A stretch of DNA of 62,177 bases, from the IMG/VR virus record IMGVR_UViG_3300022208_000003, positions 1 to 62,177 of that record. One strand, 5' to 3'. This document shows positions 1-61,743 of this stretch, in pieces (the first letter of the stretch is position 1; each line of letters begins with the position of its first letter). Source of the stretch: a virus. The notes beneath the pieces are model-generated. The model made no database searches, was not told the origin of the DNA, and was given only the letters and a program-made list of their open reading frames with translations. Made by a program: the position numbers and the translations under genes.

Positions 1-117
1 ATTGGGATAAACGTTAGCATCGCTAATGCGCTTAATATTTGCCTAAAGGTTCCTATTTTCATCATCCCCTCCGTTGTAGTAGTCAACAAAAAATAGCCCG
101 GCATTTCCGGCGCCGGG
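1..117. repeat. partial tandem copy of the 244-360 segment
   Basis: Bases 1-117 are identical to 244-360. They hold the 5' end of the small membrane-protein gene found at 138-305 and the linker upstream of the next copy. The contig therefore begins inside a second, truncated copy of a 243-bp unit. Either the cassette is tandemly duplicated in part of the population or the assembler entered a repeat loop; sequence alone cannot decide. Confidence 0.85.
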
Positions 118-137
118 GAGCTATGTCGTTGTAAAAA
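58..137 (-). repeat. cassette linker copy A (terminator hairpin plus RBS)
   Basis: Read on the minus strand: a shared post-stop segment, a GC-rich hairpin (97-117, arms CCCGGC/GCCGGG) followed by a T run, then TTGTTGACTACTACAACGG, GGAGGGG and ATGATG. The same linker recurs at 301-380, 61676-61743 and 62051-62130, with shortened forms at 723-764 and 936-961. It looks like a rho-independent terminator followed by the ribosome-binding site of the next gene. Bases 58-184 are also the exact 127-bp contig overlap. Confidence 0.8.
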
Positions 138-305
138 TCAGCATTTAACCGAAAAGCTCAGTAATTGTATTGCCAATATAGTGTACCCAATAATTATTAA
201 TTTTTCGACAATATCACCATTATCTTCAAATCCGTATACTAAGATTGGGATAAACGTTAGCATCGCTAATGCGCTTAATATTTGCCTAAAGGTTCCTATT
301 TTCAT
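138..305 (-). CDS. small two-helix membrane protein, cassette gene
   Basis: Encodes 55 aa (MKIGTFRQILSAL...). Two hydrophobic stretches (about residues 9-24 and 36-50) separated by an acidic segment (FEDNGDIVEK) predict two membrane helices. The second of two adjacent ATGs is chosen because GGAGG lies 5 nt upstream. It resembles the cassette gene at 765-935 in length, layout and the closing pattern (AIQLLSFSV versus VIQLMSLTV), so the two are probably paralogues. Function unknown; it sits in an array of linker-flanked small genes. Confidence 0.65.
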   Translation of the reverse strand: MKIGTFRQILSALAMLTFIPILVYGFEDNGDIVEKLIIIGYTILAIQLLSFSVKC

Positions 306-380
306 CATCCCCTCCGTTGTAGTAGTCAACAAAAAATAGCCCGGCATTTCCGGCGCCGGGAAGATCCGTTGTGGTCAAGA
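301..380 (-). repeat. cassette linker copy B
   Basis: Same order as copy A: post-stop segment with GTTGTGGT, hairpin at 340-360, T run, GTTGACTACTACAAC and the GGAGGGGATGATG ribosome-site/start block. It is identical to copy A from the start codons through the hairpin and diverges only between hairpin and the stop of the gene at 381-722. Confidence 0.8.
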
Positions 381-722
381 TCAGCTTAAATTAAAGATGA
401 ATAGATCAATTTTTTTATCAAAATAATAATTAAATTTCATAGATCTAGAATAATCTATTGAATAATATTTTAGAAATGATCTTGCCATTATTGACCTTGA
501 ATTTCCCCTTTTAACTATCTCGAAAGAGTTTTCATCGTTATCATTTATAAATTTTATGCCGACTTTATTATCTTTTTTATTATAATACAACTCAGCATAT
601 TTATAATTATTAATATCATGTTTGTCAACGAATGAAGAATTAAACGAAATAGTTCCATTTAACCATATTGATATTATTGGGTTTTTACTCTTCATCCCTT
701 TATGTTCAAATTTTTCAAACAT
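381..722 (-). CDS. hypothetical cassette protein
   Basis: A 113-aa protein, Asn/Lys/Tyr-rich and with no predicted membrane segment. It is markedly more AT-rich than the flanking structural genes, suggesting separate acquisition. AAGGAGG lies 5 nt before the ATG. The stop codon is directly followed by the shared linker. I do not recognise a family; the alternating hydrophobic pattern suggests mostly beta structure. Confidence 0.6.
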   Translation of the reverse strand: MFEKFEHKGMKSKNPIISIWLNGTISFNSSFVDKHDINNYKYAELYYNKKDNKVGIKFINDNDENSFEIVKRGNSRSIMARSFLKYYSIDYSRSMKFNYYFDKKIDLFIFNLS

Positions 723-764
723 CCTCCCCTCCTTAGTAGTCAGTCAACAAAAAAAGTCAGCCTG
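723..764 (-). repeat. shortened cassette linker copy C (no hairpin)
   Basis: On the minus strand it reads GGCTGAC, seven Ts, GTTGACTGACTACTAAGG, then GGGGAGG and ATG. Compared with the full linker the GC-rich hairpin is missing, while the T run and the TTGACTGACTACTA block shared with copy E are kept. Confidence 0.6.
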
Positions 765-935
765 CTATTCATTCGGCACTGTCAAGCTCATTAACTGTAT
801 TACCCAAATTGGAACACCGATAAGCCTAATTTTTAATGCGATATCCTCCCCTGCGTACACTGCTGAAAATATCATCAAAAAAAACATTATTAGTGCCATA
901 ATGCCAAGGATTACTTTAAAACTACTTATGCTCAT
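765..935 (-). CDS. small two-helix membrane protein, cassette gene
   Basis: 56 aa (MSISSFKVILGIMALI...), two strongly hydrophobic segments (about 7-27 and 37-51) with a short acidic hinge (AGEDIAL). It is a probable paralogue of the gene at 138-305. The second ATG of the ATGATG pair is preferred for its 5-nt distance to GGAGG. Function unknown; membrane location inferred. Confidence 0.65.
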   Translation of the reverse strand: MSISSFKVILGIMALIMFFLMIFSAVYAGEDIALKIRLIGVPIWVIQLMSLTVPNE

Positions 936-961
936 CATCCCCTCCGTTGTAGTAGTCAAAA
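936..961 (-). repeat. cassette linker copy D (RBS end only)
   Basis: Only the downstream part of the linker is present on the minus strand: TTGACTACTACAACGGAGGG followed by GATGATG. The hairpin portion is replaced by unrelated sequence from the upstream small gene. This is the upstream edge of the array. Confidence 0.65.
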
Positions 962-1120
962 TTAATCCATAAAAGGATTAACAATTTTCCCGCAGTACTG
1001 CTCAATCCATCGCTGGAATATCCACGCGCACCGAGTTTTCTGACACCCACGGCGGAGCGCTCCGGTACCCCAGAGAGTACGCTTGTGTTCTTTTTGCAGT
1101 CGTTTTGAGAATTTATTCAT
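962..1120 (-). CDS. small basic hypothetical protein
   Basis: 52 aa (MNKFSKRLQKEHKRTLWGTG...), highly basic with an aromatic C-terminal half. The ATG overlaps the stop of the upstream gene (ATGAATAA), the usual coupling arrangement in this genome, and the frame stays open to the linker. No family recognised; it could be fortuitous. Confidence 0.4.
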   Translation of the reverse strand: MNKFSKRLQKEHKRTLWGTGALRRGCQKTRCAWIFQRWIEQYCGKIVNPFMD

Positions 1121-1343
1121 CGTAATCAAGAACCTCACGAGCTAATTTAAAAGCTTCAACGTATGACTTTGCCTGTTCTTCTGCTTCAGCGAAAGATCCG
1201 GTGAGGCAAGCCGAAACGTCAACAGTTAAGCATTTCTTAATAGTTCCGTCCTCTGATATTCGATTTCTACTGCTTATTTTCAGGTATGGAGACCACCCTT
1301 TTTTGCAGACAGTAACGCTATCTCCATCGTGATTTACTCGCAT
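1113..1343 (-). CDS. hypothetical phage protein
   Basis: 76 aa. GGAGG precedes the ATG by 9 nt. The protein has a basic N-terminal half and an acidic helical C-terminal half rich in Ala and Glu (AEAEEQAKSYVEAF). It is soluble by inspection. No family recognised. Its stop overlaps the start of the 52-aa gene at 962-1120. Confidence 0.6.
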   Translation of the reverse strand: MRVNHDGDSVTVCKKGWSPYLKISSRNRISEDGTIKKCLTVDVSACLTGSFAEAEEQAKSYVEAFKLAREVLDYDE

Positions 1344-1440
1344 ATTATATTTCCTCCATCAGTTTTTAAAATAAGGATTTTCTTATTTCATTTTACGGCG
1401 TAGGTTGAAATAAGATGTTTCCATTTTGGAAATAACTCAT

Positions 1441-1656
1441 TTACCATTCATCATATAATGTCAAATCTTTGCTTTCTCCGCATGCACACTTGACAATCAC
1501 TATTGTTCCTAACCCTGTAGTAGTAAAACACCAGGTTAATCTTCCGCCTATTGCTCCTATCTTTTTACCTCCAAGTTGGTCATCTTCTAGGTGACAATCA
1601 TGAATTTCAACAAAATTTTCAGCTATCATCCTTTGTTTATTTGTTAACTCGAACAT
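1441..1656 (-). CDS. hypothetical protein with CxC motif
   Basis: 71 aa, starting MFELTNKQRMIAENFVEIHD after GAGGGG. The C-terminal half is Gly-rich beta-like and ends near VKCACGES, a possible metal-binding CxC. No family recognised. The 97 bp upstream (1344-1440) of the 1113-1343 gene hold no gene that I can support. Confidence 0.55.
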   Translation of the reverse strand: MFELTNKQRMIAENFVEIHDCHLEDDQLGGKKIGAIGGRLTWCFTTTGLGTIVIVKCACGESKDLTLYDEW

Positions 1657-1700
1657 ATTCCCCTCTAGTTATCTTTTTGTTCTTCCGTTTTTTCTTCTGC

Positions 1701-1901
1701 TTATTGTATCTGCTTCTTGCTCTCCTTGCATGTGTTGACATATTTCCCCCATCCAATTACTTTTTTGTATTCGTAGTTGCGCCGGAAAAGCTTGTCTGCT
1801 ATTACATTGCAAACTATGAAAATAGCTATTACAACAATAACTATTGCTGCTATCATGGCGATACTCTCGCGCAAGGTAAAATATGAAATCGCCCAATCCA
1901 T
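1701..1901 (-). CDS. small single-pass membrane protein
   Basis: 66 aa with one long hydrophobic helix at about residues 13-36 and a basic C-terminal tail, suggesting an N-out/C-in anchor or a short stress/lysis-type membrane protein. GGAG lies 7 nt upstream of the ATG. Gene lies immediately downstream of 1903-2124. A different frame is also open here but lacks a comparable ribosome site. Confidence 0.5.
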   Translation of the reverse strand: MDWAISYFTLRESIAMIAAIVIVVIAIFIVCNVIADKLFRRNYEYKKVIGWGKYVNTCKESKKQIQ

Positions 1902-1902
1902 A

Positions 1903-2124
1903 TTAGTTCTCCATCGTTACCCATTCTCGCTTAAACATCTCTTTTGAGTGCCCACGCACCCAGCATCCGGTATCAACCACAGTACCTATTTTCGATTGCT
2001 CTGTGGTTCCGTTTGCGATAAACGCTGCACGGTGCTGATCGCCGATATTTTCGACAACATAAAATGCCGGCATCCTTACCTCGTCAAACCAGCGGTCGAA
2101 CGCTCCTGGTGTGTCGGTTGTCAT
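1903..2124 (-). CDS. hypothetical phage protein
   Basis: 73 aa from the ATG that overlaps the preceding stop (TAATG) and follows GGAGATGGGGTA. Contains FYVVENIGDQ and GCWVRGHS segments but no motif I can assign. An earlier in-frame start would overlap the upstream gene by about 100 nt and is less likely. Confidence 0.55.
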   Translation of the reverse strand: MTTDTPGAFDRWFDEVRMPAFYVVENIGDQHRAAFIANGTTEQSKIGTVVDTGCWVRGHSKEMFKREWVTMEN

Positions 2125-2447
2125 TACCCCATCTCCTTTAAAAGTTTGTACGCCATCTCCTCGGTAAAAAACGAGTATCGGTAACCGTCTTGCTGGTACC
2201 ATTTCCCATTGATCATTAGGCGATAGCACTTGTCAGTATGGCTGATATTTAACAAAGTTCCTGTGGCGCAGTACTGACTATCCTTGTAATAAAAAATGCA
2301 ATTCTTCCGCTGATCTGAATACGGAGCAAACTTATCAGACCATTGCTTGGCCGGATAGAGCTCAATGACTATTTCCTTCTTAAAACGCCCCGAGTTTTGG
2401 GGGCGTTCTTTGGATAGTTTTAGCACGGAGGCTCGTGGCTCTCTCAT
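2124..2447 (-). CDS. hypothetical phage protein next to exonuclease
   Basis: 107 aa, basic N-terminus, aromatic-rich middle (YYKDSQYCATG, GKWYQQDGYRYSF) with predicted mixed fold. Its ATG overlaps the exonuclease stop (ATGA), so it is translated with the recombination genes. No family recognised. Confidence 0.6.
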   Translation of the reverse strand: MREPRASVLKLSKERPQNSGRFKKEIVIELYPAKQWSDKFAPYSDQRKNCIFYYKDSQYCATGTLLNISHTDKCYRLMINGKWYQQDGYRYSFFTEEMAYKLLKEMG

Positions 2448-3052
2448 TTGTCGGCCTCGATATCGGCAGCAGCATCTTGTATTTGTCCAACAATCTCGCC
2501 AATTGCCATTTCGAGTAATTGATTAAATTCATCATCGCGTTGTACTCTGATTATGAAAGGCTTTATTCCTGGATAGTAGCTCATAAAGTCCCACCACTTG
2601 CGCCCGGTGACGTAAAGTGATCCATGGACCTGCCGGTGGTACTCAGCAGGCAGCTTGCCGGATCTCAGGTATTTTATGTGCGTGCTTAGCTTTGGGCATT
2701 TTATTTCAAGGCCGCCGTCGTCACCAATAAGGCCATCAGGAGAGCAACCACACTGCGGGCTTTCTTTTGCGATAAATCCAACCTGCCTGACCTCAACGTC
2801 TCGCGTGAACTCGTATAGCTCACGTGCTTCTCCCTCAAGATCAATCCCGCGTTGCATCCATTCGTTCTTAAAACCATCCTCAGTATGACCAAGCAGACGT
2901 TCCCCGACCAGTTGATTGACGTAATCTTTGCACGAGGAGCTAAAAGAGCCGTTTGCTTGTATTATTTTACCGAAATTTGAAGCTGTTGGGATACCTGCTC
3001 TCGCTGCATGCCATTCTGGTGTTCCCTGTTCTATTTCGTCATAAATGATCAT
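2444..3052 (-). CDS. YqaJ/lambda-type recombination exonuclease
   Basis: 202 aa. Matches the YqaJ viral recombinase (lambda Exo) family: N-terminal Q9-G-T-P-E-W14 motif, then S104-P-D-G-L, and GGLEIKCP giving the PD-(D/E)xK catalytic set D106, E116 and K118. Such enzymes resect one strand of a double-stranded end to make a 3' tail for annealing. Its start overlaps the stop of the Erf gene, so exonuclease and annealase are made together, as expected for a two-component phage recombination system. Confidence 0.93.
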   Translation of the reverse strand: MIIYDEIEQGTPEWHAARAGIPTASNFGKIIQANGSFSSSCKDYVNQLVGERLLGHTEDGFKNEWMQRGIDLEGEARELYEFTRDVEVRQVGFIAKESPQCGCSPDGLIGDDGGLEIKCPKLSTHIKYLRSGKLPAEYHRQVHGSLYVTGRKWWDFMSYYPGIKPFIIRVQRDDEFNQLLEMAIGEIVGQIQDAAADIEADK

Positions 3053-3744
3053 TTTTTTGACCTCAAGGCGGTTAACGCTTTACTGTATACCTGCCGAGGT
3101 ATAGCCTCAACCGATGGACACCTGATATACTTCAAGAATGCCTCCTTATCGGCAGATTTTTCCTTGATGAGGTCGTTGATTATTCCTTGCTCTTCCTCAG
3201 TGATAAATTGAACATGCTGATTTCCATCGCGGTCCTCATCTGCTATGGCAAGATTGAAAATCATTATCGTTAAATATCTGCGAGCGTAAGAGATTGAGGA
3301 TCCCCTGGCGTGGGTGTCTGTCTTGTTGACCTTGCCGGCTATTCCCTTATTGTCAAGCGGACAATCATATTGGTAATTTTTACTGAAACCGTCTTTATGC
3401 GAAACCTCGCATTTAACCAGTAGATGCCCTTCTATTTCAGATTTTCCGGTGTCAAATGATAATGCGAATCCATGGGCAGTATATACAGGTATTATCAACC
3501 TGTTTATCGCCTCAAGCCTCGCATATTTTGAATTTGTCTGCTGATTGCTTGCATCCTTGACTATCGGACGGATCTCTTTTTGCGCTTCACTCATCGCCCT
3601 ATTGAAAGAGATCATGGCCTCTCTTTCCATGCTTCTCTCGTGCAGCTCAAAAAGCTTCTCCATCTTGGCAACATCCAAATCTGGATTCATTGCCGCATCG
3701 AGTATCGGCGAGCCTGTTTGCGTTGTCGGTAAATTGTCGCTCAT
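3049..3744 (-). CDS. erf: ERF-family single-strand annealing protein
   Basis: 231 aa. Carries the ERF superfamily core: N-terminal helix (FNRAMSEAQKEI), SKYARLEAINRLI, and the conserved SYARRYLTIMIFNLAIADED followed by DGN at about residues 151-174. Erf proteins bind single strands and pair complementary DNA. First gene behind a near-consensus promoter at 3772-3799, with GGAGGGAAT before the ATG, and coupled to the exonuclease. It would support recombination of terminal repeats and between the repeated linkers of this genome. Confidence 0.93.
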   Translation of the reverse strand: MSDNLPTTQTGSPILDAAMNPDLDVAKMEKLFELHERSMEREAMISFNRAMSEAQKEIRPIVKDASNQQTNSKYARLEAINRLIIPVYTAHGFALSFDTGKSEIEGHLLVKCEVSHKDGFSKNYQYDCPLDNKGIAGKVNKTDTHARGSSISYARRYLTIMIFNLAIADEDRDGNQHVQFITEEEQGIINDLIKEKSADKEAFLKYIRCPSVEAIPRQVYSKALTALRSKK

Positions 3745-3771
3745 ATTCCCTCCCGGTGGTTAGTTTCTCTC

Positions 3772-3799
3772 ATTATACAACACGGACTTGTCTTGTCAA
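3772..3799 (-). promoter_or_regulatory. strong sigma-70-type promoter for erf-exo operon
   Basis: Minus strand TTGACA (3794-3799), 16 nt, TATAAT (3772-3777): both hexamers are consensus. Start of transcription would fall about 20 nt before the erf ribosome site. It lies between the HNH gene and erf. Confidence 0.85.
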
Positions 3800-3817
3800 T
3801 ATTATTTGAGTGATGTT

Positions 3818-4057
3818 TTATATTCTGTTGACTCCGTGGGCTTTGCCATGGCAATGGATGCAAAGCGTGACGAGATTTTCCATGGTGTCCGGCCCACCGT
3901 GTGACCTGAAAATTATGTGGTGAGGAACATCAAGTGGATACCCGCCAGGGCAATCAGGATCTTGGCACGTGTAATCGTCACGTTCTATCACTGCCGCGAA
4001 TAGGTCTTGCAGCGGTTGCCCTTTTAATCTGATCGGCTTTTTCTTCGGATATTGCAT
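3818..4057 (-). CDS. HNH endonuclease domain protein
   Basis: 79 aa. C-x4-C (CQDPDC), then VPHHIIFRSHGGPD, N, and CIHCHGKAH form the HNH ββα-metal core with zinc cysteines. Small phage HNH proteins act in packaging or as free-standing homing nucleases; here it sits in the early recombination operon, not next to terminase, so the role is open. The ATG overlaps the stop of the ninB-like frame (TAATG). Confidence 0.85.
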   Translation of the reverse strand: MQYPKKKPIRLKGQPLQDLFAAVIERDDYTCQDPDCPGGYPLDVPHHIIFRSHGGPDTMENLVTLCIHCHGKAHGVNRI

Positions 4058-4560
4058 TATATTTCAATTACCTTTGGTCTTTTATTAGTTAGCCCAAGAA
4101 GCCAATCGTGAACATCCTTCTTCGGAATTGTGATTGGTATTTGCTCATGGATTGCGTAAAACTTTATTCTCGTGAGATATTTTGCCATTGGTTTTGATTT
4201 AAGACCTCTTGTCGATATCTCTCGTGCAAGAGCCTTTGCCGCTTTTTCGTATTTTTCAGTACCTTTTTCTAAGAGATTTACCGCCTCAACTAGGCATGGA
4301 AAATAATCTCACATTTCAAGTTTTATGTTGATAAGGTACCGCTCTTTGAAATACTCATGCATATTTTCAGGAGTCCGACCGTAATATTCACCTATTTCCG
4401 TGTTCCACATCCATAGGGTTCTATTTTGGTGACCTGTTTTATTGTCATCAAACTTAAGGACCTTCACCGTCCACCTTTCGTCCTCGGGCAATTCCTCGAT
4501 TACCTTCAGGACTTCGATGCGGTCGGACGGTGAGGTTATGGTGTATTCTGTGGGTTTCAT
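4057..4560 (-). pseudogene. NinB-like recombination protein with internal UGA
   Basis: One frame of 168 codons resembles lambda NinB-type proteins: N-terminal strand region, WTVKVLKFDDNKTGHQNRTLW, helical EIGEYYGRTPENMHEYFKE. Codon 84 is TGA (4309-4311). The frame continues without further stop for 83 codons (DYFPCLVEAVNLLEKG... to ...RPKVIEI) and ends with a TAATG overlap to HNH. No start with a ribosome site follows the TGA. Either a recent nonsense mutation, a sequencing/assembly error, or readthrough. Confidence 0.65.
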
Positions 4561-4709
4561 TTATAATTAACTTTGAACGGAGTTTCACACATCAAACATT
4601 CGGTGCGCTCTAAATCCTCAGCAAACTCTGTGTTGACAAAATCGCATTTTGGGCATGTCCATTCCCAGTAAGTTTCAGGAATAAATTTTACCGATTCTAC
4701 CTCTTCCAC
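4557..4709 (-). CDS. small zinc-ribbon protein, GTG start
   Basis: 50 aa beginning at GTG preceded by AAGGAGGGGAGA. Two CxxC pairs (CPKC and CLMC) 18 residues apart form a zinc ribbon. Its stop overlaps the ninB-like start (ATGA). It is the first gene of the leftward early operon after the control region. Confidence 0.65.
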   Translation of the reverse strand: MEEVESVKFIPETYWEWTCPKCDFVNTEFAEDLERTECLMCETPFKVNYK

Positions 4710-4724
4710 TCTCCCCTCCTTTCA

Positions 4725-4745
4725 CGGGCGGCACGATGCCGCCCG
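4725..4745. other. perfect 9-bp GC hairpin beside a ribosome site
   Basis: CGGGCGGCA-CGA-TGCCGCCCG forms a 9-bp stem with a 3-nt loop. On the minus strand it ends 5 nt before the AAGGAGGGG of the zinc-ribbon gene. The overlap with TCCTTTCACGGG (4718-4728), which also occurs at 5359-5370, suggests a regulatory site. It has no T run, so it is unlikely to be a simple terminator. Confidence 0.55.
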
Positions 4746-4962
4746 GACTAATAACAGTTGACAGTCTATGATACTTGCCGAGCTATATTTTCAACCGGCT
4801 CGGCTATTCGGTTTTTCGCCGGCGGCGTACAAATTAAATATTGGAATCAAATGCATAAACAACCATATCGCAATCCTCTAATTAAGTTGACATGCTTTCA
4901 GCCGGCATGGTTTCGGCTTATTCAATATTAGTACCGCGCTTTGGAGTGGCGCGGCTCACTCT
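4746..4962. other. non-coding stretch with a possible rightward terminator
   Basis: No gene can be supported here. GCCGAGC (4777-4783) and GCTCGGC (4798-4804) form a 7-bp stem followed by TATTCGGTTTTT on the plus strand, a weak terminator-like element. The rest is AT-rich spacer with no good promoter. Confidence 0.35.
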
Positions 4963-5160
4963 TCATGCATCCACAAAATTGCCAATTGGCCAGCCCATAC
5001 ACCGTCCACCCCGGTGCGGTTCCTGGCGGCTATGCCTGTTCCGATTTTTTTGGCTTTCGTACCTCAACACCGGCTGGCCTCGCGGTGTTGCCTCCACACG
5101 CTCCTCCGGGTGGCCGGCCTGGAGGATTAGGTGGAGGATGGTTAGTAGGAGGGTGATCAT
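4963..5160 (-). CDS. possible small protein with hydrophobic N-terminus
   Basis: 65 aa starting MITLLLTILHLILQ then a basic Arg/Gly/Pro-rich tail. The ATG overlaps the stop of the upstream 53-aa gene (ATGA), the coupling used throughout this genome. Base composition (GC-rich) differs from neighbours and the opposite strand is also open, so it may be spurious. Confidence 0.35.
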   Translation of the reverse strand: MITLLLTILHLILQAGHPEERVEATPRGQPVLRYESQKNRNRHSRQEPHRGGRCMGWPIGNFVDA

Positions 5161-5318
5161 TCTTCAATAACCATCATCTCATCATGTCCAATTGAGAATA
5201 TATAATTTCTATATTTAGTTATCACACAGAAATAACCTGCAACAATTGCTTCTGTTATGTCTGTGACATCTTCGATTACTGTTGGGCTCATCTTTTCTTT
5301 TTGTATCGTTACCTTCAT
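5157..5318 (-). CDS. small hypothetical early protein
   Basis: 53 aa (MKVTIQKEKMSPTVIEDVTD...), with a ribosome site GAGGGAAGTT directly before the ATG, beta-rich and acidic. First leftward gene behind the control region. No family recognised. Confidence 0.55.
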   Translation of the reverse strand: MKVTIQKEKMSPTVIEDVTDITEAIVAGYFCVITKYRNYIFSIGHDEMMVIEE

Positions 5319-5352
5319 AACTTCCCTCATCGTTAAATTTTGATCATGCCTA

Positions 5353-5381
5353 ACCGTATCCTTTCACGGGGACTATGTCAA
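5353..5381 (-). promoter_or_regulatory. candidate leftward early promoter
   Basis: TTGACA (minus; 5376-5381) with a 17-nt spacer and a weak -10, TACGGT (5353-5358). The spacer is filled by a repeated operator-like element (5358-5373). It would drive the 53-aa gene and the early leftward operon. The weak -10 suggests need for an activator or low basal use. Confidence 0.5.
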
Positions 5382-5438
5382 CAATAAAATTCACCACAGA
5401 TAATTTTTTTAGTGGTTGACTTATCCTTTTGTGGGGAG
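5358..5438. promoter_or_regulatory. operator-like direct repeats between divergent promoters
   Basis: ATCCTTTCACGGGGAC (5358-5373) and ATCCTTTTGTGGGGAG (5423-5438) match at 12 of 16 positions, and each fills the -35/-10 spacer of one of the two divergent promoters. A third partial copy is at 4718-4728. This is the arrangement expected of binding sites for a repressor controlling both directions, possibly the small protein encoded at 5464-5649. Confidence 0.6.
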
Positions 5439-5444
5439 TATTAT
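5416..5444 (+). promoter_or_regulatory. rightward promoter
   Basis: TTGACT (5416-5421), 17-nt spacer, TATTAT (5439-5444), followed by GGTAAGGAGG and the ATG at 5464. The spacer is an operator-like repeat. It drives the rightward genes to 7432. Confidence 0.8.
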
Positions 5445-5463
5445 TGATAGGTAAGGAGGTATT

Positions 5464-5649
5464 ATGGAGACGAAAGATATAATCAAAGCTCTACGCAAGG
5501 CCGGGCATGCGGATAAGGATGTCGTGAAGGAGCTCGGCACGGTGAAGCTAAAAACTTACTGGAATTGGTTCAATGAGACAACGAGCCCAAGTAAGGCAAA
5601 TAAGAAGCTCTTGCGTCAATTAGCTGCTGGGAAGGGGGTGAAGGTGTGA
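5464..5649 (+). CDS. small regulator-like protein, first rightward gene
   Basis: 61 aa. Helical throughout: IIKALRKAGHADKDVVKELG then LKTYWNWFNE..., consistent with a compact helix-turn-helix of Cro-like type but without a textbook match. AAGGAGG is 6 nt before the ATG. Its position directly behind the operator-bearing promoter suggests autoregulation. It could bind the repeated elements at 5358 and 5423; this is inference. Confidence 0.65.
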   Translation: METKDIIKALRKAGHADKDVVKELGTVKLKTYWNWFNETTSPSKANKKLLRQLAAGKGVKV

Positions 5650-24865: not shown

Positions 24866-25533
24866 TTTTTACCCCATAGAGCAGGTTCAACAAACGCTTT
24901 GACCATTTCTTCTCGATACTCAAGGCCTAACCATTTAATAACTTCTTCGATCTCACTGAAATCTCCACCTATCATCTTTGACGGCCAAACCTCACGAAGA
25001 TTCAGCCCGGCAATTTTCATTTGAGAGAAACGTTTTTCATGCTCTTCCACCCATCGCAACCAGCCAACAACATCACGGTAAGCCCGCATGAAGCTGGTCT
25101 GCATGCATGACCTTGCAATATCGTTTTTATCGCGGCGAACGATTATCCATTTAGCATCAGGAAAAGCCATATGCCAGAGCAGCCAGATAAGGCACATCTT
25201 CGCGCCTTTGTAGAAATACGGCCCACCCTTGTAACCTTCCTCGGAGAACACGGTCATCACCTTAGCTCGCCATCTATCAGCCTGTTCTTGGTTGACGTTG
25301 AATATCTGCTGTGTAGACGGTAGGGGTTTTTGCCCAAGCTGATCGCATTCTATTCCTTTTAGATAAGGCTTAACGATTGTCTGGCGGATGCGGTCATTTT
25401 CAAACATGCCCTTTTTGTTGTACTTGTTTGGCCCGTTCATCCTGCCGCCAAACGCACCACATACGTTTATTACTCCGGCGGTCATAGAGGTTCCGGACCG
25501 AGCAGCACCGGTTATAAGGATAGGGCTGTTCAT
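24862..25533 (-). CDS. sulfotransferase-family protein
   Basis: 223 aa. N-terminal ITGAARSGTSMTAGVI is the PAPS-binding loop of sulfotransferases (G-x(2)-RSGTS), followed by a second conserved region WIIVRRDKNDIARSC (3'-phosphate-binding RR/RD). The presumed reaction moves sulfate from PAPS to a hydroxyl on a glycan or lipid. Coupled (ATGA) to the fibre-like gene and to the methyltransferase-glycosyltransferase fusion. Confidence 0.82.
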   Translation of the reverse strand: MNSPILITGAARSGTSMTAGVINVCGAFGGRMNGPNKYNKKGMFENDRIRQTIVKPYLKGIECDQLGQKPLPSTQQIFNVNQEQADRWRAKVMTVFSEEGYKGGPYFYKGAKMCLIWLLWHMAFPDAKWIIVRRDKNDIARSCMQTSFMRAYRDVVGWLRWVEEHEKRFSQMKIAGLNLREVWPSKMIGGDFSEIEEVIKWLGLEYREEMVKAFVEPALWGKK

Positions 25534-27947
25534 TTCCAGTACCTCTTTACGATATCAAGATGCTGCATGTTGTGGGGCTTTTGGTTGCCGTGGAAGCAGA
25601 TAATCTTTGCGTCCGGCGGCACACCTGTTGAGCAGTGTCTTTTATAGCTATGGATAGGCATAAAATCGTTGATTGGTTTTATATCGACTCCTGCTCCCTG
25701 TAAGGTGCGGAATATATAAACCTGGTCCCATCCTTTACCTTGCCGATGGTCCTTAAATTTATCGATTATATACCTGAAATCACCATGCCAAGCCATAACC
25801 CCTGAAGCCCAGTTACCAGCCCTTTTCCTTGCAGGGTTAAAAGGAACCAGCATTCTGAATTCGCCTTCAGGCATTTTCTTAACCGAGTCAACAAGCTCGG
25901 TGATATCGTCAATTATTACCGTATCAAGATCTATATAAAGGACCGGTCCTTTAAGCCTAAACAGCTCGAGCTTTGACCACCAGCCCTCAAGCTCGTTGAT
26001 AAGCTTTATACTATCTGTAAGGACATCTTCAGAGTCAGTAAAAGTCACAAAGTCGTATTTTGTTTTAACGAATCTATTTGCCATACTTTCAAGCTTTTCG
26101 GCATATAGATTATCAAATACTCCTCCGGTTTTAAGCACGCACGCGATAGTTACAGGAGAATTTCTCTTTATCAATTCTCCTGATTCGCATTTTCCAGTGA
26201 ATCTATTTACAGCCTGATTTATATCTACAACCGGTTTAACCTGTGGCGGCAACCTATCTGGCGGGTTAAGTTCTTTATTGTCATGATTGATCACGATTTG
26301 CCTTCTTTCGTAATCTTTCCCTTCAAGGATAGAGGTTGTAGTGTAAAGTAAGCTTTCAACTTCCAATCCTCTAGTATTTTCAATAAAATAAGTTTTGTTC
26401 TTTACATCGTCAGGTGCGCAATGCCAGGCGAATTGCCGATTATAGTAATCATTCCAGATTATCAATGTTTTCAAATTGAAACATGCAGCCGATATCGTAA
26501 GGCCTGACGGGTAACCGATAACCATTTCAGCACCACGCATGAGGCCGAAAAGCTTTTGAATCGTGGTCTTTCCTGTCAGATCAACGTATTCGGTTGTTTG
26601 CCTCATGACCTTTTGCAACCCAATGTCTTCTGAATCCCACTTCGCCCCTGTAAAAACTATGGTACAGCCTGTTTTTTGATGCAGTAAGTTTAAATATTCA
26701 GCTATTCGTGGGATTTCGAATTGTCTTGACCAGTAAGAATAAGTACCAAAAAGAGGCCAATAAACAACAATATACTTTCCATATATTTCTTGGCATTCTC
26801 GCTTGAAATTTTCTTGCTCAAGAGAAATGAACATTGGAGGGCGCCAGTTTGTTGCAAGGTCTTGGTCTATATCCTCCATCCTTTTGCCGATTCTAAGATG
26901 ACCGTTATATGAGATAAAAAAATCACATCCAAGTATATCCTTAAAGATCGTCCTGCCTTCCCTTGCGTATGCCTCGCGCCATATTTCTTTATGTGGTCCG
27001 TTTGCGTGTTTAACCTCTCCAGTTACGTTAAGGAAAGGGAACATCTCAAGGAACGGAAACGACCTCTTGTGTCCGTTATGAGCCTTATCTCTTGGTGAAG
27101 CGATAAAGACGTCAGGAAGCCCTAACTTTTCCCTCTCAAGAAAAGCCTGAAGCTTTGTTACCGACCAAAAAGAATCACCTAGTCCTGGAGGAAGTAGTAT
27201 TGTAGGCCTATCCTGGGAAGGTTTAGAGCAAAAGAAAACCACCTTTGACGATATAGGTTTCTTTATATTTTCTACCTTAAACCCCGCATCTTTCAGCAAT
27301 AGCTCGAGCTGTCCTGCGGTAAAATACCAAAGATGCTCCTTTTTCCAATGGTGCGCCCCGTCTTCCGCGTAAAAGTCCGGAATATCGATTATGCATGTAC
27401 CGCCTTGGTCGGTAACCCTGAACAGCTCGGCAATGAATGATTTGGGATCAAGCGTATGCTCAAGGACGTCATGGCAAGTTACGATTTTGAAGTGGTCTGT
27501 CGGGAAATGTATTTCCTCAAATTCTTTGCGATAAATGAATGAATTGTCTTTCAGGGAAGCGTAATCAGCTATCTCACAACCAAAAGCGGATGCACCTCTT
27601 GCCCGGCACTCATCAACAAAAGCCCCAGAGCCTGCCCCAACGTCAAGAATCCTCTCTTCAGCTCCGGAAATTATTCCGTATAGATTGCACCTTTTGCGTG
27701 CAAGTTTACGGTCATGCCCATAGCTCTTAGCCTGGTACTTTTTAGAAACAGGTTGATATTTTGAGTAAAACTTTATGGATTCACTTTTCGTGCAATAAGG
27801 AGGTGCTGTCTGGTGGATTACTCCACATTTTGAGCAGATCTCTACCGACATGTTATCTTTAGCCGGCACCGTCTCGCCTAACTCTGTAACCTCGTAATAT
27901 GGCCTTGTAGATCGCTCGGCCTTATCGTTTCCGCAAAAGCAATTCAT
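25530..27947 (-). CDS. methyltransferase-glycosyltransferase(-glycosyltransferase) fusion
   Basis: 805 aa with at least three parts. Residues 1-45: four Cys (C3, C5, C38, C41), likely a zinc knuckle. About 95-240: class I SAM methyltransferase (LDVGAGSGAF at 101-110; VLEHTLDP). About 248-545: fold like glycosyltransferase family 9/heptosyltransferases (LLPPGLGDSFWSVTK start; VIGYPSGLTISAACF near 476-490). About 597-805: GT8-like domain with DxD (D673-L-D675) and a C-terminal ICFHG. The combination of C-type methyltransferase with two sugar transferases in one chain is unusual. Probable role: building or decorating a surface glycan. Confidence 0.78.
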   Translation of the reverse strand: MNCFCGNDKAERSTRPYYEVTELGETVPAKDNMSVEICSKCGVIHQTAPPYCTKSESIKFYSKYQPVSKKYQAKSYGHDRKLARKRCNLYGIISGAEERILDVGAGSGAFVDECRARGASAFGCEIADYASLKDNSFIYRKEFEEIHFPTDHFKIVTCHDVLEHTLDPKSFIAELFRVTDQGGTCIIDIPDFYAEDGAHHWKKEHLWYFTAGQLELLLKDAGFKVENIKKPISSKVVFFCSKPSQDRPTILLPPGLGDSFWSVTKLQAFLEREKLGLPDVFIASPRDKAHNGHKRSFPFLEMFPFLNVTGEVKHANGPHKEIWREAYAREGRTIFKDILGCDFFISYNGHLRIGKRMEDIDQDLATNWRPPMFISLEQENFKRECQEIYGKYIVVYWPLFGTYSYWSRQFEIPRIAEYLNLLHQKTGCTIVFTGAKWDSEDIGLQKVMRQTTEYVDLTGKTTIQKLFGLMRGAEMVIGYPSGLTISAACFNLKTLIIWNDYYNRQFAWHCAPDDVKNKTYFIENTRGLEVESLLYTTTSILEGKDYERRQIVINHDNKELNPPDRLPPQVKPVVDINQAVNRFTGKCESGELIKRNSPVTIACVLKTGGVFDNLYAEKLESMANRFVKTKYDFVTFTDSEDVLTDSIKLINELEGWWSKLELFRLKGPVLYIDLDTVIIDDITELVDSVKKMPEGEFRMLVPFNPARKRAGNWASGVMAWHGDFRYIIDKFKDHRQGKGWDQVYIFRTLQGAGVDIKPINDFMPIHSYKRHCSTGVPPDAKIICFHGNQKPHNMQHLDIVKRYWK

Positions 27948-30037: not shown

Positions 30038-30815
30038 TGTTCCACGCTGATATTGGGTAGTAGTTGATAACGTCAGGCCTATCAGTTTTGTTTGGCCTAT
30101 CAAGACTTGTCGGAAACTTATCTCTGCTCTCTGTTACCTCACCGACAAGATCTTTTCTCACAAGACTAAGCTCTAAAAGAGGAGGGAAAGACCATGCGTC
30201 AAGATTTACCATCTGAAGAGAGTTATTCGCATGTATATGGAATATATGAAAGTTTTCAAGTATTTTATCAATTCCAGCATTATATTTTTGGAATATATCG
30301 ATATTGCATTGTTCGAAAAAGTCTCCGATTATCATGTGAAAATAAGGAGAATGTCCGTTCTCTTTATGCTCGACATGAAAGACGTGCATTTCAATCAATA
30401 TCTGGCTGAATCTCTTTAGGTCTTCAGCCTTGATCTCTCTCAATAACTCCCATTCATGGCATTCAATATCTACTTTGAGGAGAGAATTGCCGGTATGCTC
30501 TTTGAACCCTTCAGGGTATAGCTGATTCGCGTATTTCTTTATATGTACAAATTTGTCGTTTACTTCAGGTAACTTTTGTATTGTCGGATCACAGAGTAAG
30601 CATGATGTAGTATTAGGAAATCTATATAAAAAATCAGCCTCAAAAGAGACGTCGTTACCAACACCAAAAGTCATTATCTTTTCAGTTTTGTCGCATATCT
30701 CTTTTAATGCGACATACCCGCCATCGTTAGGACCACCTATACGGGTCTTTGTCAATCCGACATCAACAACGGATATCTTTCTGAAGAAATCGCCAATAGG
30801 CCGCATATCAGCCAT
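30015..30815 (-). CDS. FkbM-like methyltransferase
   Basis: 266 aa, start chosen at the ATG overlapping the previous stop with GGAG 8 nt upstream. SVVDVGLTKTRIGGPNDGGY and LLKVDIECHEWELLREI match the FkbM-type SAM methyltransferase layout (LKIDVEGHEWxVL). Probably O-methylates a sugar. The last 22 codons overlap the transketolase start region. Confidence 0.72.
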   Translation of the reverse strand: MADMRPIGDFFRKISVVDVGLTKTRIGGPNDGGYVALKEICDKTEKIMTFGVGNDVSFEADFLYRFPNTTSCLLCDPTIQKLPEVNDKFVHIKKYANQLYPEGFKEHTGNSLLKVDIECHEWELLREIKAEDLKRFSQILIEMHVFHVEHKENGHSPYFHMIIGDFFEQCNIDIFQKYNAGIDKILENFHIFHIHANNSLQMVNLDAWSFPPLLELSLVRKDLVGEVTESRDKFPTSLDRPNKTDRPDVINYYPISAWNSELFRDC

Positions 30816-31822
30816 TAATTCATCTCCACAATGCATCTCCCGGCTTTACCGGTGCGCATGGTTGCTATTGCTTGGTTAATATCATCGAGTTGGAAGCGAT
30901 TGGTTATCATTTTTGATAATTCAAATCGTCCTTCCCGGTACATCTGAAGATAACGGTTTATATCTTTGTCAGGGTCAGTGAGCCCTCCTTGGCTATCGAG
31001 TATCGTCTTTCCGCAGTAATGCTGCCGTGCGTTTGAGAAAACAATATCAGCTCCTGTGTAAGGCTGTCCAACAAGGATAAGCTTGCCTCCCGGTTTGACC
31101 ATTTTGAGCCCCTGTTCAATGACAAGGCAGTTCCCGGTACAATCAACGAAAACGTCAACAGGTCGTTCCCAGAATTTATTCTCGCTCCTAACTGTTTTTG
31201 TTGCACCGAACTCCTCCGCCATTTCTAGCTTTTCATCGTGGATATCGATTGCCACTATCCGTCCGGCGCCAACAAGCTTTGCCCCCTGGATCACGTTAAG
31301 CCCAACACCACCAACTCCGGCAACCGCGATTGACTGGCCTATCTTAAGCTTTGCCTCGTTATTGATAAGCCCAAACCCGGTAGTAACAGCGCAGCCCATG
31401 AGTGCCCCTATATCGGCAGGGATATCGTGCCCTATTTTGGTAACTCTGTTTTCGGAAACAATAGCTGATGTAGCAAAGGTGGCGATAGGGCCAGAGCCGA
31501 CGTTGAGCTTGTTGCTGCTCTTGTATCGTGCCGGCACCGCATCTATTCCAGATCCCTTACGCCAGTGCATGACAACACGATCACCTTTCTCAACCTTGCG
31601 TACACCTCCTCCGACTCCCATTACTCTCCCGCAACCTTCATGCCCGAGCATGTGCGGCAAGTACGGGTCAGCTCCGGCAGCTCCTGTTATCTCGCCTATC
31701 TGAGCACCACAGATACCAGAGGCTTCAATCCTGACAAGAACCTGCCCCTCCATTATTTCCTGAGGTTCAAGTTCCATGACTTGGAGTGGAGAATTTTGTT
31801 CAACCAATACTGCGGCTCTCAC
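30815..31822 (-). CDS. zinc-type medium-chain alcohol/sugar dehydrogenase
   Basis: 335 aa. MDR signatures: ICG (C38), GHE at 60-62 with catalytic zinc ligands C38, H61 and C144, and the Rossmann motif AVAGVGGVGL near 166-175. The structural-zinc four-Cys lobe is absent. Probably oxidises or reduces a sugar or polyol. GTG start overlaps the upstream stop. Confidence 0.86.
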   Translation of the reverse strand: MRAAVLVEQNSPLQVMELEPQEIMEGQVLVRIEASGICGAQIGEITGAAGADPYLPHMLGHEGCGRVMGVGGGVRKVEKGDRVVMHWRKGSGIDAVPARYKSSNKLNVGSGPIATFATSAIVSENRVTKIGHDIPADIGALMGCAVTTGFGLINNEAKLKIGQSIAVAGVGGVGLNVIQGAKLVGAGRIVAIDIHDEKLEMAEEFGATKTVRSENKFWERPVDVFVDCTGNCLVIEQGLKMVKPGGKLILVGQPYTGADIVFSNARQHYCGKTILDSQGGLTDPDKDINRYLQMYREGRFELSKMITNRFQLDDINQAIATMRTGKAGRCIVEMN

Positions 31823-42854: not shown

Positions 42855-42922
42855 TATCCTATCCCCTCCTCATTAGCTCCATATACAACCATTATATTAT
42901 ACTCAATGATGGTTTCATTCAT
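42854..42922 (-). CDS. 22-aa peptide, duplicated tail of another gene
   Basis: Encodes MNETIIEYNIMVVYGANEEG plus two residues, overlapping stop and start codons on both sides. It repeats the C-terminus of the gene at 43722-43931 (FMNETIIEYNIMVVYGAKEE). The underlying 51-bp DNA repeat has one mismatch. Probably a relic of recombination used as a coupling peptide. Confidence 0.4.
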   Translation of the reverse strand: MNETIIEYNIMVVYGANEEGIG

Positions 42923-42926
42923 GAAA
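42876..42926. repeat. 51-bp direct repeat, copy 1
   Basis: Matches 43741-43791 with one mismatch (G/T). It contains the 3' end of one gene and its junction to the next. Confidence 0.85.
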
Positions 42927-43725: not shown

Positions 43726-43931
43726 CCCCCCTCCTCCTTGGCTCCATATACAACCATTATATTATACTCAATGATTGTTTCATTCATGAAAGACTTAGAT
43801 CCAACCGGGATGAAGGTTATAGACTCAACTCCATTCTCCTTTTGGATCTTTTCAATATTATTTCTCGTGTAATGATAAATTTCAAACCTTTTGCCATTAC
43901 CTACCTTGGTTTGTATCGGTGTTAGCTCCAT
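43722..43931 (-). CDS. hypothetical protein, source of duplicated tail
   Basis: 69 aa from the ATG behind AAGGAGGGATGG, better supported than an earlier start. IYHYTRNNIEKIQKENG and SITFIPVGSKS. Its last 22 codons are duplicated at 42854-42922. Function unknown. Confidence 0.6.
   Translation of the reverse strand: MELTPIQTKVGNGKRFEIYHYTRNNIEKIQKENGVESITFIPVGSKSFMNETIIEYNIMVVYGAKEEGG
43741..43791. repeat. 51-bp direct repeat, copy 2
   Basis: Matches 42876-42926 at 50 of 51 positions, here within the C-terminal codons of the gene at 43722-43931. Confidence 0.85.
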
Positions 43932-53831: not shown

Positions 53832-54199
53832 TCGTCCTCCACCAGGTCTGCTATTGTTATCTCGTCAAATCCAGCCATTAACTCGTTTTCTGACCGCTCC
53901 ATGTACCAGTCGATCTTTCCGCCGCCGTTGCGGTTAAAATGGAATGGCCCGCCGCAGATCTCCAAAACTTCAAGCAGCGTGATTTTATCAGGGCTTTTTA
54001 TTAGCACTGGTCCACCCCGGCTGCCCTGCCTGATTTCAATCAGGCCCCTCTTGCTTAGGTCTTGTAGAATCTTGGCGAGAAAATGGGTTGAAATCCCTTC
54101 CGCGTCAGCAATTTCTTGACGACTTACGACAATTCCTACTCCTGCCCTTGCCAAGTAACGCATGGCCTGGAGTGCGTATATTTGCTGGTTTGTAATCAT
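53828..54199 (-). CDS. Rrf2-family transcription regulator
   Basis: 123 aa. Winged-helix start YALQAMRYLARA, ISTHFLAKILQDLSKRGLIE and RQGSRGGPVLIKSPDKITLL then EVLEICGGP: a clear Rrf2 pattern. The Fe-S Cys cluster of IscR is absent, so it is not an iron-sulfur sensor of that type. Phage Rrf2 regulators are rare. Confidence 0.85.
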   Translation of the reverse strand: MITNQQIYALQAMRYLARAGVGIVVSRQEIADAEGISTHFLAKILQDLSKRGLIEIRQGSRGGPVLIKSPDKITLLEVLEICGGPFHFNRNGGGKIDWYMERSENELMAGFDEITIADLVEDE

Positions 54200-54210
54200 T
54201 TCCCCTCCAA

Positions 54211-54873
54211 TTATTCCGGATATCTTTCCAGGTATTTTTTCATTGCATCACCATAGCCATCCCAGGTATCGACTCCGTGTCTTATAAGGCAATCAAGCTC
54301 GTAGTCTCTTTTTTTGAGTCTTGCCAGTTCAGCTTTTTCTACGACGAGATAATCTCCACCAGGATGCCGATTGCATAGGTCCTCAAGCTCAGAAAGCTTT
54401 GCTTTCTTTTCGGCTATTTCTAAAATCAATTTATCGTTTTCCTTTGCCGCTGAAATCCTAGCAATATTTATTGCCTCGATTTGTTTTTTAAGATTTTCGG
54501 CGAGTTTTTCGTTTTTACTTGTCTCAATCTCAAGAGCTTTTTTCCTATTGGCAAGCTCTCCAACAGCAAGAGCTAAATAATGAAGCTCTTCAACCGCCTT
54601 CTTTGTCTTTTCCCCGACCTTAGCCATCGGTTCTTCGACAAAGATAGCGTTTACGAGCCGCTGCGATCCATGGTGCTCGTAAGGAATATCCCTTTCAAGA
54701 GTTGGCCCTCCAACACAATAAATTTCCATTGCTTTCCCCTCGTAGACAGGAGTCACGAGGTATTTTGTCTTTCCTTGGCTATCGGTGACGCAATCGTCTA
54801 GGACTACCTGTTCCCCTAGTTCATTGTAATAATACCTTCCTATTACCGCCTCTTGCCCATCAGTTGTTACCAT
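54211..54873 (-). CDS. coiled-coil phage protein
   Basis: 220 aa. N-terminal ~90 residues look like a small beta domain (DCVTDSQGKTKYLVTPVYEG). Then two coils: KKALEIETSKNEKLAENLKK and KLILEIAEKKAKLSELEDL. Charged C-terminus. Its stop junction is nearly identical to the C-terminus region of the next gene. Confidence 0.6.
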   Translation of the reverse strand: MVTTDGQEAVIGRYYYNELGEQVVLDDCVTDSQGKTKYLVTPVYEGKAMEIYCVGGPTLERDIPYEHHGSQRLVNAIFVEEPMAKVGEKTKKAVEELHYLALAVGELANRKKALEIETSKNEKLAENLKKQIEAINIARISAAKENDKLILEIAEKKAKLSELEDLCNRHPGGDYLVVEKAELARLKKRDYELDCLIRHGVDTWDGYGDAMKKYLERYPE

Positions 54874-55066
54874 TTCCCCTCCAATTATTCTGGATATCTT
54901 CCCATTGATTCATATGATCACTAATAATATTAGCGAGCTTCTGTTTAAACCTTGAAGCTCCAGCGAAGTCGCAACACACTGAAGCGTGTAGCAAAGATTC
55001 GTTTCCGTATTTTTGCTCTGCCATCCACTCATACAGCTTCTCTGCAAGTTTTTCTGCATCAGACAT
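54860..55066 (-). CDS. small helical protein
   Basis: 68 aa. MSDAEKLAEKLYEWMAEQKY and a FKQKLANIISDHMNQWEDIQ helix, two Cys in the middle. The last residues read through the GGAGGGGAAATG linker in another frame (NNWRGNGN). GGAGGGGAAATA before the ATG. First gene behind the structured leader. Confidence 0.5.
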   Translation of the reverse strand: MSDAEKLAEKLYEWMAEQKYGNESLLHASVCCDFAGASRFKQKLANIISDHMNQWEDIQNNWRGNGNN

Positions 55067-55226: not shown

Positions 55227-55264
55227 GGGTTTTTTATTTTTTTTATTTGTGGTGTCTTTTTTTG

Positions 55265-55293
55265 TTGACTATGCACCTAGCTTCGGTTATAAG
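55265..55293 (+). promoter_or_regulatory. rightward promoter P1 with ACCTAGCTTCGGT operator
   Basis: TTGACT (55265-55270), 17-nt spacer, TATAAG (55288-55293). The spacer carries ACCTAGCTTCGGT (55275-55287), a variant of the palindrome ACCGA-N3-TCGGT. Followed by AAGGAGAACGGAA and the first rightward gene. Confidence 0.8.
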
Positions 55294-55572: not shown

Positions 55573-55648
55573 GTTTGTCTATCAAAAACCGCAAAATATG
55601 AGTCACAAAGTGTTTTGTGGCTCATCAATTAACATCAAGGAGAAGGAA
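55573..55648 (+). repeat. hairpin linker (right block, copy 1)
   Basis: GAGTCACAAA / TTTGTGGCTC (55600-55623) stem, followed by CATCAATTAACATCAAGGAG and AAGGAAATG. Similar to linkers at 56145 and 56497. Confidence 0.65.
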
Positions 55649-55885
55649 ATGACGCCAATCAAAGAAAAGCTCGAAACTATCACCACAATTTACGGATCTT
55701 TCTCAGCGTTTTACCGAGACTGGAAGATCCCACAACAGACGGCCCAGTCTTGGACTGAAAAAGGTAGGAAGGCTACTTCTGTAGTCCATGCTTTGCTTGA
55801 CGCGGTCATAATTGTGGAGAGGCAGGCAAAAGTTATCAGTCAGCTACAACAGAAAATAGCCGAACTCGAAAAAAAAATAACCTAA
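55649..55885 (+). CDS. putative HTH regulator (YdaS/Cro-like)
   Basis: 78 aa. EKLETITTIYGSFSAFYRDW then IPQQTAQSWTEKGRKATSVV, an HTH-like arrangement ending in a coiled-coil (VISQLQQKIAELEKK). Could be the repressor that binds the ACCGA-N3-TCGGT operators; inference from position. Confidence 0.55.
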   Translation: MTPIKEKLETITTIYGSFSAFYRDWKIPQQTAQSWTEKGRKATSVVHALLDAVIIVERQAKVISQLQQKIAELEKKIT

Positions 55886-55909: not shown

Positions 55910-55938
55910 TTGACTCTATACCGAGCTTCGGTTATATT
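55910..55938 (+). promoter_or_regulatory. rightward promoter P2 with ACCGAGCTTCGGT operator
   Basis: TTGACT (55910-55915), 17 nt, TATATT (55933-55938). Operator ACCGAGCTTCGGT at 55920-55932. It lies between two genes of the block. Confidence 0.82.
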
Positions 55939-56144: not shown

Positions 56145-56187
56145 GAAAAACGCCCCCGAAAGGGGGCATCATTTAACGGAGAAGGAA
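56145..56187 (+). repeat. hairpin linker (right block, copy 2)
   Basis: GCCCCCGAAAGGGGGC (56152-56167), then ATCATTTAACGGAGAAGG and AAATG. Same arrangement as at 56497. The GAAA tetraloop is a stable cap. May be a weak terminator with coupled ribosome site. Confidence 0.78.
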
Positions 56188-56496
56188 ATGAATATATACG
56201 ACTTTATAGGTGGTACGGCAAAAAAATTTAAGTTAGGTGATCTGGCCATAGTTAAATGGCCTGATTCTTGTCATACCTGCAAGGATTCACAAGCTGAATA
56301 TAGGATAGGAACAATAGTAAAAATTGTCGAAATAATAAAAGGACCAGGAGACGAGTATTATCATTGCTTGTCACTCGGAGATTTGGCACTTAATGATTGC
56401 GATGAAGGTTGGTATTACTATGATAGAGAATTATCTGAATTGGAATCAAAGTCTGAATCTTACGAAATCGAAGAAAAAATCGAACTGATTGACTAA
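56188..56496 (+). CDS. small Cys-containing hypothetical protein
   Basis: 102 aa. GDLAIVKWPDSCHTCKDSQA then IVKIVEIIKGPGDEYYHCLS: SH3/KOW-like small barrel with a CHTC site. Acidic end. No family recognised. Confidence 0.6.
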   Translation: MNIYDFIGGTAKKFKLGDLAIVKWPDSCHTCKDSQAEYRIGTIVKIVEIIKGPGDEYYHCLSLGDLALNDCDEGWYYYDRELSELESKSESYEIEEKIELID

Positions 56497-56548
56497 GACG
56501 AAGAGAAATACCCCGGAAAACCGGGGCATCATTTAACGGAGAACGGAA
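56497..56548 (+). repeat. hairpin linker (right block, copy 3)
   Basis: CCCCGG-AAAA-CCGGGG (56511-56526), then the same CATCATTTAACGGAGAA string and CGGAAATG. Only one base differs from copy 2 after the stem. Confidence 0.78.
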
Positions 56549-56770
56549 ATGAAATACCAAGATTGGTCACGAGTAGAGTCAAGAGAAAGTTCGGACTGTT
56601 CAGCGGAATTATTTGTGCAGACTGACGAAAAGCAGGGACCTGAGGTGTGACATGCCAGAGTTGTTGTCACTCCATTTTCCACGCATTGTCCGACCTGTGG
56701 AGAGATTTGGGCATGCGATTCAATATCCGTATGCCCTGGATGCGGTGAACAATATCCTGAGGAGTGGTAA
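56549..56770 (+). pseudogene. zinc-ribbon gene interrupted by in-frame TGA
   Basis: One frame of 74 codons: MKYQDWSRVESRESSDCSAE and continuing to codon 33, then TGA (56648-56650), then HARVVVTPFSTHCPTCGEIW and CPGCGEQYPEEW. The second part contains both CxxC pairs of the zinc ribbon. No new start with ribosome site follows the TGA. Third such case here (with 4309 and 51517). Confidence 0.6.
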
Positions 56771-56780: not shown

Positions 56781-56809
56781 TTGACACAATACCGACCATC
56801 GGTTAATAT
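56781..56809 (+). promoter_or_regulatory. rightward promoter P3 with ACCGACCATCGGT operator
   Basis: TTGACA (56781-56786), 17 nt, TAATAT (56804-56809). Operator ACCGACCATCGGT at 56791-56803. Leads directly into a terminator; no gene between. Confidence 0.78.
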
Positions 56810-61630: not shown

Positions 61631-61660
61631 TTAAATCACCTCCTTTTTTAGAATTAATTA

Positions 61661-61688
61661 ATAATAGCATATTTTAGTAGTCAGTCAA
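61661..61688 (-). promoter_or_regulatory. promoter of HTH-replication operon
   Basis: Minus strand TTGACT (61683-61688), 16 nt, TATTAT (61661-61666). Embedded in a cassette linker (copy E), so the linker terminates the upstream cassette gene and starts this operon. Confidence 0.8.
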
Positions 61689-61743
61689 CAAAAAAATAGC
61701 CCGGCATTTCCGGCGCCGGGGCTCCGTTGTGGTAAGAATCAGC
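61676..61743 (-). repeat. cassette linker copy E
   Basis: Hairpin 61700-61720, T run, GTTGACTGACTACTA. Identical hairpin to copies A, B and F; the RBS end is replaced by the promoter of the HTH gene. Confidence 0.8.

Follow-up and report, generated by a model that had tools for sequence, protein, structure and literature searches.

Near-identical linkers join an array of small genes between the annealing and replication operons of an uncultured 62-kb phage

The window analysed here, a stretch of 62,177 bases that is a whole IMG/VR record classed as linear, carries an array of small minus-strand genes joined by recurring linkers. We give an even chance to the reading that this array forms the 3' end of an early operon running leftward, whose gene units multiply and change content by recombination through linker homology. 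The record comes from an uncultured tailed phage, with TerL, portal, major capsid protein (MCP), Erf-like annealing protein, RecE-like exonuclease and RepO-like initiator; its nearest TerL proteins (~50% identical) belong to Rhizobium, Pseudanabaena (cyanobacterial) and 9NA-type phages, and no link to T4 was detected. The array lies on the minus strand between the Erf/exonuclease operon and the HTH-RepO operon, and its order, read from the Erf operon, is 765-935, 381-722, 138-305, the contig edge, 61744-62055, the HTH gene and RepO. The features are as follows.

3772-3799, minus: sigma70-type promoter, 12/12 match, upstream of Erf
3049-3744, minus: Erf-like single-strand annealing protein
2444-3052, minus: RecE-like exonuclease
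932-959, minus: start leader of 765-935, 28 nt identical to the leader of 138-305
765-935, minus: small gene, 56 aa, hydrophobic, paralogue of TMp1, no family match
723-764, minus: variant linker between 765-935 and 381-722, without the GC hairpin, with a T7 run and the GTTGACTGACTACTAA leader
381-722, minus: small gene, 113 aa, AT-rich, weak match to PHROG 36252 (E 6e-4)
306-383, minus: linker between 381-722 and 138-305, with post-stop segment, terminator-like hairpin, leader and RBS
340-360, minus: terminator-like hairpin CCCGGCGCCGGAAATGCCGGG and T run, identical at 97-117, 62090-62110 and 61700-61720
138-305, minus: small gene (TMp1), 55 aa, hydrophobic, stop TGA inside the post-stop motif GCTGAT
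63-140, minus: linker joining 138-305 to the contig-start TMp1 copy
1-62, minus: 5' portion of an additional copy of TMp1, at the contig start; same sequence as 244-305
62131-62177, minus: 3' portion of an additional copy of TMp1, at the contig end; same sequence as 138-184
62056-62133, minus: linker joining the contig-end TMp1 copy to 61744-62055
61744-62055, minus: small gene of 103 aa without a homologue and with a weak coding signal, ACTACAACGGAG and ACCACAACGGAG on either side
61631-61743, minus: last (fifth) linker, with post-stop segment, the same hairpin, TTGACTGACTACTAA, promoter TTGACT-16-TATTAT (61688-61661) and a strong RBS
61442-61630, minus: HTH (XRE-like) regulator, small, 62 aa
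59712-61445, minus: replication initiation (RepO-like) protein

A preliminary description of this DNA had placed four minus-strand small genes at 765-935, 381-722, 138-305 and 61744-62055, and open reading frames were found at exactly these positions. It had also proposed that two of them are paralogues, which was borne out by the comparison of 138-305 with 765-935 (18/55 identical residues, with a score of 60 where 2000 shuffles gave 32 at most); the pair shares 33% identity in protein and 57% in gene DNA, and the product of 765-935 is probably a two-helix membrane protein, judged by its sequence. The other gene bodies are unrelated, with non-paralogous similarity at background, in agreement with the claim that the gene contents differ. 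By codon statistics the annotated frame scored better than the other two minus-strand frames in 4/4 genes, while for 765-935 and 138-305 one antisense frame scored about equally well. Because the coding signal of 61744-62055 is weak, with a small margin in the codon statistics and GC content flat across the three codon positions, it may not be a real gene. Profile and family searches returned no confident family for the array genes and nothing among defence families; tblastn of three array genes against phages and a search of plasmids gave no match, and the sole match in Rfam was a tRNA. Elsewhere in the record, 30815-31822 (minus), amid the structural genes, matches a zinc-containing alcohol dehydrogenase superfamily PHROG over its full length (phrog_2640, E 1e-80), and 25530-27947 (minus) encodes an 805-aa protein with both methyltransferase-like and glycosyltransferase-like matches.

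Three modules recur in the linkers, namely a start leader, a hairpin and a post-stop segment. The start leader consists of TTGACTACTACAACGGAGGGGATGATG with an RBS and two start codons; 26-28 nt of it are the same before 765-935, 138-305, 61744-62055 and the contig-start TMp1 copy, while 381-722 is preceded by a variant, TTGACTGACTACTAAGGAGGGGAGGATG, that agrees at 23/28 positions. The hairpin and its T run are identical at 30/30 positions in four copies (331-360, 88-117, 62081-62110 and 61690-61720); the motif, CCCGGCG...GCCGGG and then a T run (CCCGGCGCCGGAAATGCCGGG with CTATTTTTT), fits the intrinsic-terminator pattern on the coding strand and was predicted to fold at -11.6 to -12 kcal/mol in the four linkers. 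The post-stop segments (GCTGATnnTTACCACAACGGA) are just 61-73% alike (15/23, 19/26 and 16/25), and their TGA serves as the in-frame stop of both 138-305 and 381-722. Only a weak fold and the T7 run were found between 765-935 and 381-722, and only an AT-rich hairpin, overlapping the end of ORF 962-1138, upstream of 765-935; these two boundaries, which have no GC hairpin, count against recombining cassettes. Of the earlier claim that one nearly identical linker separates the genes, the hairpin and three of the four leaders were as described, but the post-stop segments and the variant 765-to-381 linker were not. The linkers are the only source of 24-mers with at least three copies in the 62 kb, and because of this count and the expectation of ~5e-8 for a random shared 28-mer, their repetition is not due to chance. 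Within the whole record CAACGGAG occurs five times, in four leaders and one post-stop segment of the array and nowhere else, so that 61744-62055 is also flanked by a short direct repeat.

The linkers are nearly identical while the genes are not, as had been claimed, and this holds even for the paralogues: since 138-305 and 765-935 retain only the identity given above and share 28/28 nt of leader, the leader did not diverge with its gene, and the sequences indicate that linker and gene histories are decoupled. An RBS alone cannot account for the conservation of TTGACTACTACAAC, so either the linker is continually spread and homogenised by recombination, or it is bound by a strict function in cis. 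The contig edges bear on this choice. The contig end (62051-62177) repeats 58-184 exactly over 127 nt and no further, 127 being a typical assembly k-mer, and the contig start (1-117) repeats 244-360 exactly. Because both edges fall within a repeat, they point to another copy of the 138-305 cassette that was left unassembled: were the genome to close across the edge, a second TMp1 gene would be formed from 62131-62177, 59 nt of missing sequence (the counterpart of 185-243) and 1-62. The TMp1 cassette unit measures 243 nt, with zero differences over the parts sequenced at the contig edges. The cassette thus appears to be tandemly duplicated at the edge, in uncertain copy number; such an exact tandem cassette favours recombination over a strict cis function, although the duplicated unit is drawn from contig ends without reads, which counts against recombining cassettes.

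A sigma70-type consensus promoter was found in the last linker only (TTGACT-16-TATTAT), where by its sequence it is the consensus promoter for the HTH/RepO operon; none is recognisable at the other leaders, which may have promoters of other classes. Given the 12/12 promoter before Erf and no sigma70-type promoter at the internal leaders, the array is most simply regarded as the tail of the Erf-exonuclease operon, which the promoter at 3772-3799 probably drives. With the operon promoter upstream of Erf, each hairpin would attenuate read-through, and the last would insulate the array from the HTH/RepO genes, whose own promoter directly follows that hairpin. The number of terminator-like sites in 1-5500 was not above that in shuffles, a further point against recombining cassettes. 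At 5350-5460 a divergent region, in which TCCTTT..GGGGA motifs recur close to a plus-strand promoter, resembles a repressor/Cro-like control region.

Under the reading that we prefer, the recombining unit would comprise leader, RBS and start codons, a small accessory gene, a post-stop segment and an intrinsic-terminator-like hairpin. Homologous recombination or strand annealing between near-identical linkers of ~60 nt could then duplicate units in tandem, delete them and possibly replace the gene lying between two linkers. The preliminary description had cast the linkers as recombination handles aided by the Erf/exonuclease system. What holds of this is that duplication and recombination by way of the linkers may reasonably be inferred, because the linkers far exceed the genes in identity, a tandem cassette lies at the contig edge, and the genes for the Erf annealing protein and RecE-like exonuclease lie 2-3 kb from the array in the same direction. 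Recombining cassettes are also favoured by the linkers' standing as the sole 24-mers in at least three copies, by the repeat of the 243-nt TMp1 unit, by the placing of the hairpins on the coding strand and by a promoter that follows the last hairpin only. Against them count that no linker-bearing relative was found, that gene exchange was never seen, and that the linkers could also stay identical if they were a cis element under strong functional constraint.

No close relatives of the phage were found in any collection searched. Relatives identified by TerL alignment reached 56% identity at most, and those identified by MCP reached up to 66-70%, but were fragments of 8-23 kb; single-query searches of IMG/VR with Erf, TerL and RepO yielded no relatives, and the portal gave no match among genomes. 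Exact scans for the linker found no match in IMG/VR (28-, 31- and 18-mers) or in GTDB genomes (20-mer); these scans exclude the window's own record, and maybe near-identical ones, and so have no positive control. Only chance-level matches of 14-22 nt were found between the linker and 42 TerL-related virus records, and none in 9 MCP-related records. With no linker-bearing relative found, the comparative data neither support nor refute gene swapping between phages.

Two known kinds of repeated element resemble these linkers. Arbiol in 2010 and Comeau in 2014 reportedly described PeSLs as promoter(early)-stem-loop composite motifs of T4-type phages. The likeness lies in a conserved stem-loop with expression signals, repeated between small accessory genes and proposed as a homology handle for shuffling; the stem-loop terminator between genes has its counterpart here in the hairpin and T run of four linkers, and in the last linker terminator and promoter are fused (TTGACTGACTACTAA...TATTAT). 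Whereas each PeSL copy has an early promoter, a consensus stands here in the last linker only (61688-61661), and the internal linkers consist of leader, RBS and start codons with no recognisable promoter. The phage here also differs in being a 62-kb phage without a detected T4 link, in which PeSL-like shuffling is a proposal. According to a published account, PeSLs mediate gene shuffling between related T4-like phages (PMC4503421). The SAS/ESAS elements of cluster K mycobacteriophages comprise a 13 bp SAS, present 11-19 times per genome at the RBS of several non-structural genes unrelated to one another, and about half of the copies follow directly on an inverted repeat; they occur only in the non-structural half of the genome and nearly all share one orientation, and the inverted repeats of ESAS are not regarded as RNA hairpins (PMC3203893). 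Here, too, a repeat lies within a few nt of the start codons of several unrelated genes in one orientation, and the longer duplicated leaders are likewise outside structural genes; a GC hairpin lies upstream of the leader at 138-305, 61744-62055 and the contig-start TMp1 copy, and is absent before 381-722. The leader here, TTGACTACTACAACGGAGGGGATG in direct reading, is not the SAS consensus GGGATAGGAGCCC, nor is this a cluster K genome, its TerL being nearest to those of Rhizobium, cyanobacterial and 9NA-type phages; in addition, the hairpin here is terminator-like with a T run, and the genes are contiguous in an array. By analogy, PeSLs seem the closest functional precedent and SAS/ESAS the closest anatomical one, and because membership in each fails on one tested feature, we regard the array as a variant working like both.

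Integrons share with the array a row of small genes with little homology and a common element between them. The R boxes of integron attC sites read GTTRRRY / RYYYAAC. The linker ends GTTGACT / CCACAAC, read by eye and set against this consensus, each break it, and the linkers carry an RBS and start codon, as integron elements do not. No Phage_integrase match was found in the record, while the same search matched all 14 control genomes, and no resolvase was detected in it. With no tyrosine recombinase or resolvase in the record and the mismatch to the attC boxes, integron membership was rejected; an integrase may be supplied from elsewhere. The analogy with an integron-like gene store without an integrase is weak, and PeSL or SAS/ESAS fits better. 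Phage morons, too, are accessory genes that bring along expression signals and a terminator; the genes here differ in having no promoter each and in forming a tandem array with a shared linker. The array looks like an unusually tidy example of the known repeated regulatory linkers that aid duplication and shuffling of small genes in phages.

Other repeated leaders occur in the genome, and an upstream comparison placed the longer ones (at least 30 nt) outside structural genes, with only short RBS-like matches elsewhere. A second family, of hairpin, CATCA(A/T)TTAAC and GGAGAAGGAAATG, lies between small plus-strand genes at 55598-55651, 56151-56190 and 56510-56552; its stems differ yet pair and its leaders are conserved, and with no T run these are not obvious terminators. 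Promoter-like sites at 55264-55292, 55910-55938 and 56781-56809 (plus) hold an ACCGA-GCTT/CCAT-CGGT palindrome between -35 and -10, imperfect in the first copy, which suggests a common repressor operator. On the minus strand, a 64-nt block with a TATAAT-type promoter and RBS, 95% identical at 42863-42926 and 43728-43791 (865 nt apart), precedes two different genes, and a 34-nt leader is duplicated (94%) at 54190-54230 and 54864-54904 in front of two adjacent genes; of these, the second (54211-54873) has a match in a host RecBCD inhibitor family.

It is possible, though we consider it distinctly short of probable, that the linker is held identical by selection as a cis element, that is, a terminator or attenuator joined to a leader under protein or RNA control, for example through GTTG-N7-CAAC by the RBS; its repetition would then reflect shared control, with recombination incidental, as proposed for SAS/ESAS. 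The leader is indeed preserved at 28/28 between diverged paralogues, predicted folds pair it both with its own bases and with the RBS (UUUGUUG/CAACGGA), the plus-strand set (55598-55651, 56151-56190 and 56510-56552) keeps one leader under different stems, and the next gene encodes a small HTH regulator, for which GTTG-N7-CAAC was considered a candidate operator. However, the hairpin loop and the whole stem are also 100% identical, where pairing alone would need to be kept, the plus-strand family demonstrates that stems are able to change, and the leader of 381-722 is clearly different. An ordinary recent tandem duplication of one gene-terminator unit, with some copies later replaced or diverged and no continuing shuffling system, we consider unlikely: the identical 243-nt TMp1 unit, the paralogue pair and other duplicated leaders such as 42863-42926/43728-43791 (95%) are in keeping with it, but pure duplication cannot yield 381-722 and 61744-62055, which have no similarity to the TMp pair, and the linkers look younger than the divergence of the paralogues. 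That strain variants or repeats were stitched in assembly, making the linker repeats partly chimeric, is very improbable, since even though the contig ends break exactly in a repeat with a 127-nt overlap, the contig runs unbroken through 244-959 (three genes with their linkers) and through 61640-62110, and the linker variants differ consistently with the upstream gene.

How phages gain and rearrange many tiny genes is an open question, for which PeSLs and SAS/ESAS are known hints. Recombination through the linkers might go further, and we put forward only as a doubtful extension that this is an integrase-free phage cassette array, in which the linkers give RBS, start codons, a stop-bearing post-gene segment and a terminator, any DNA between two linkers becomes an expressed gene, and Erf and the exonuclease swap, duplicate and delete cassettes at a high rate; if so, array content would vary at the population level. 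A compact array of this kind, in which long identical linkers sit next to annealing genes of the phage itself, would offer a tractable place to measure whether such linkers work as handles for recombination, and it would extend the linker-handle idea beyond T4-type and cluster K phages.
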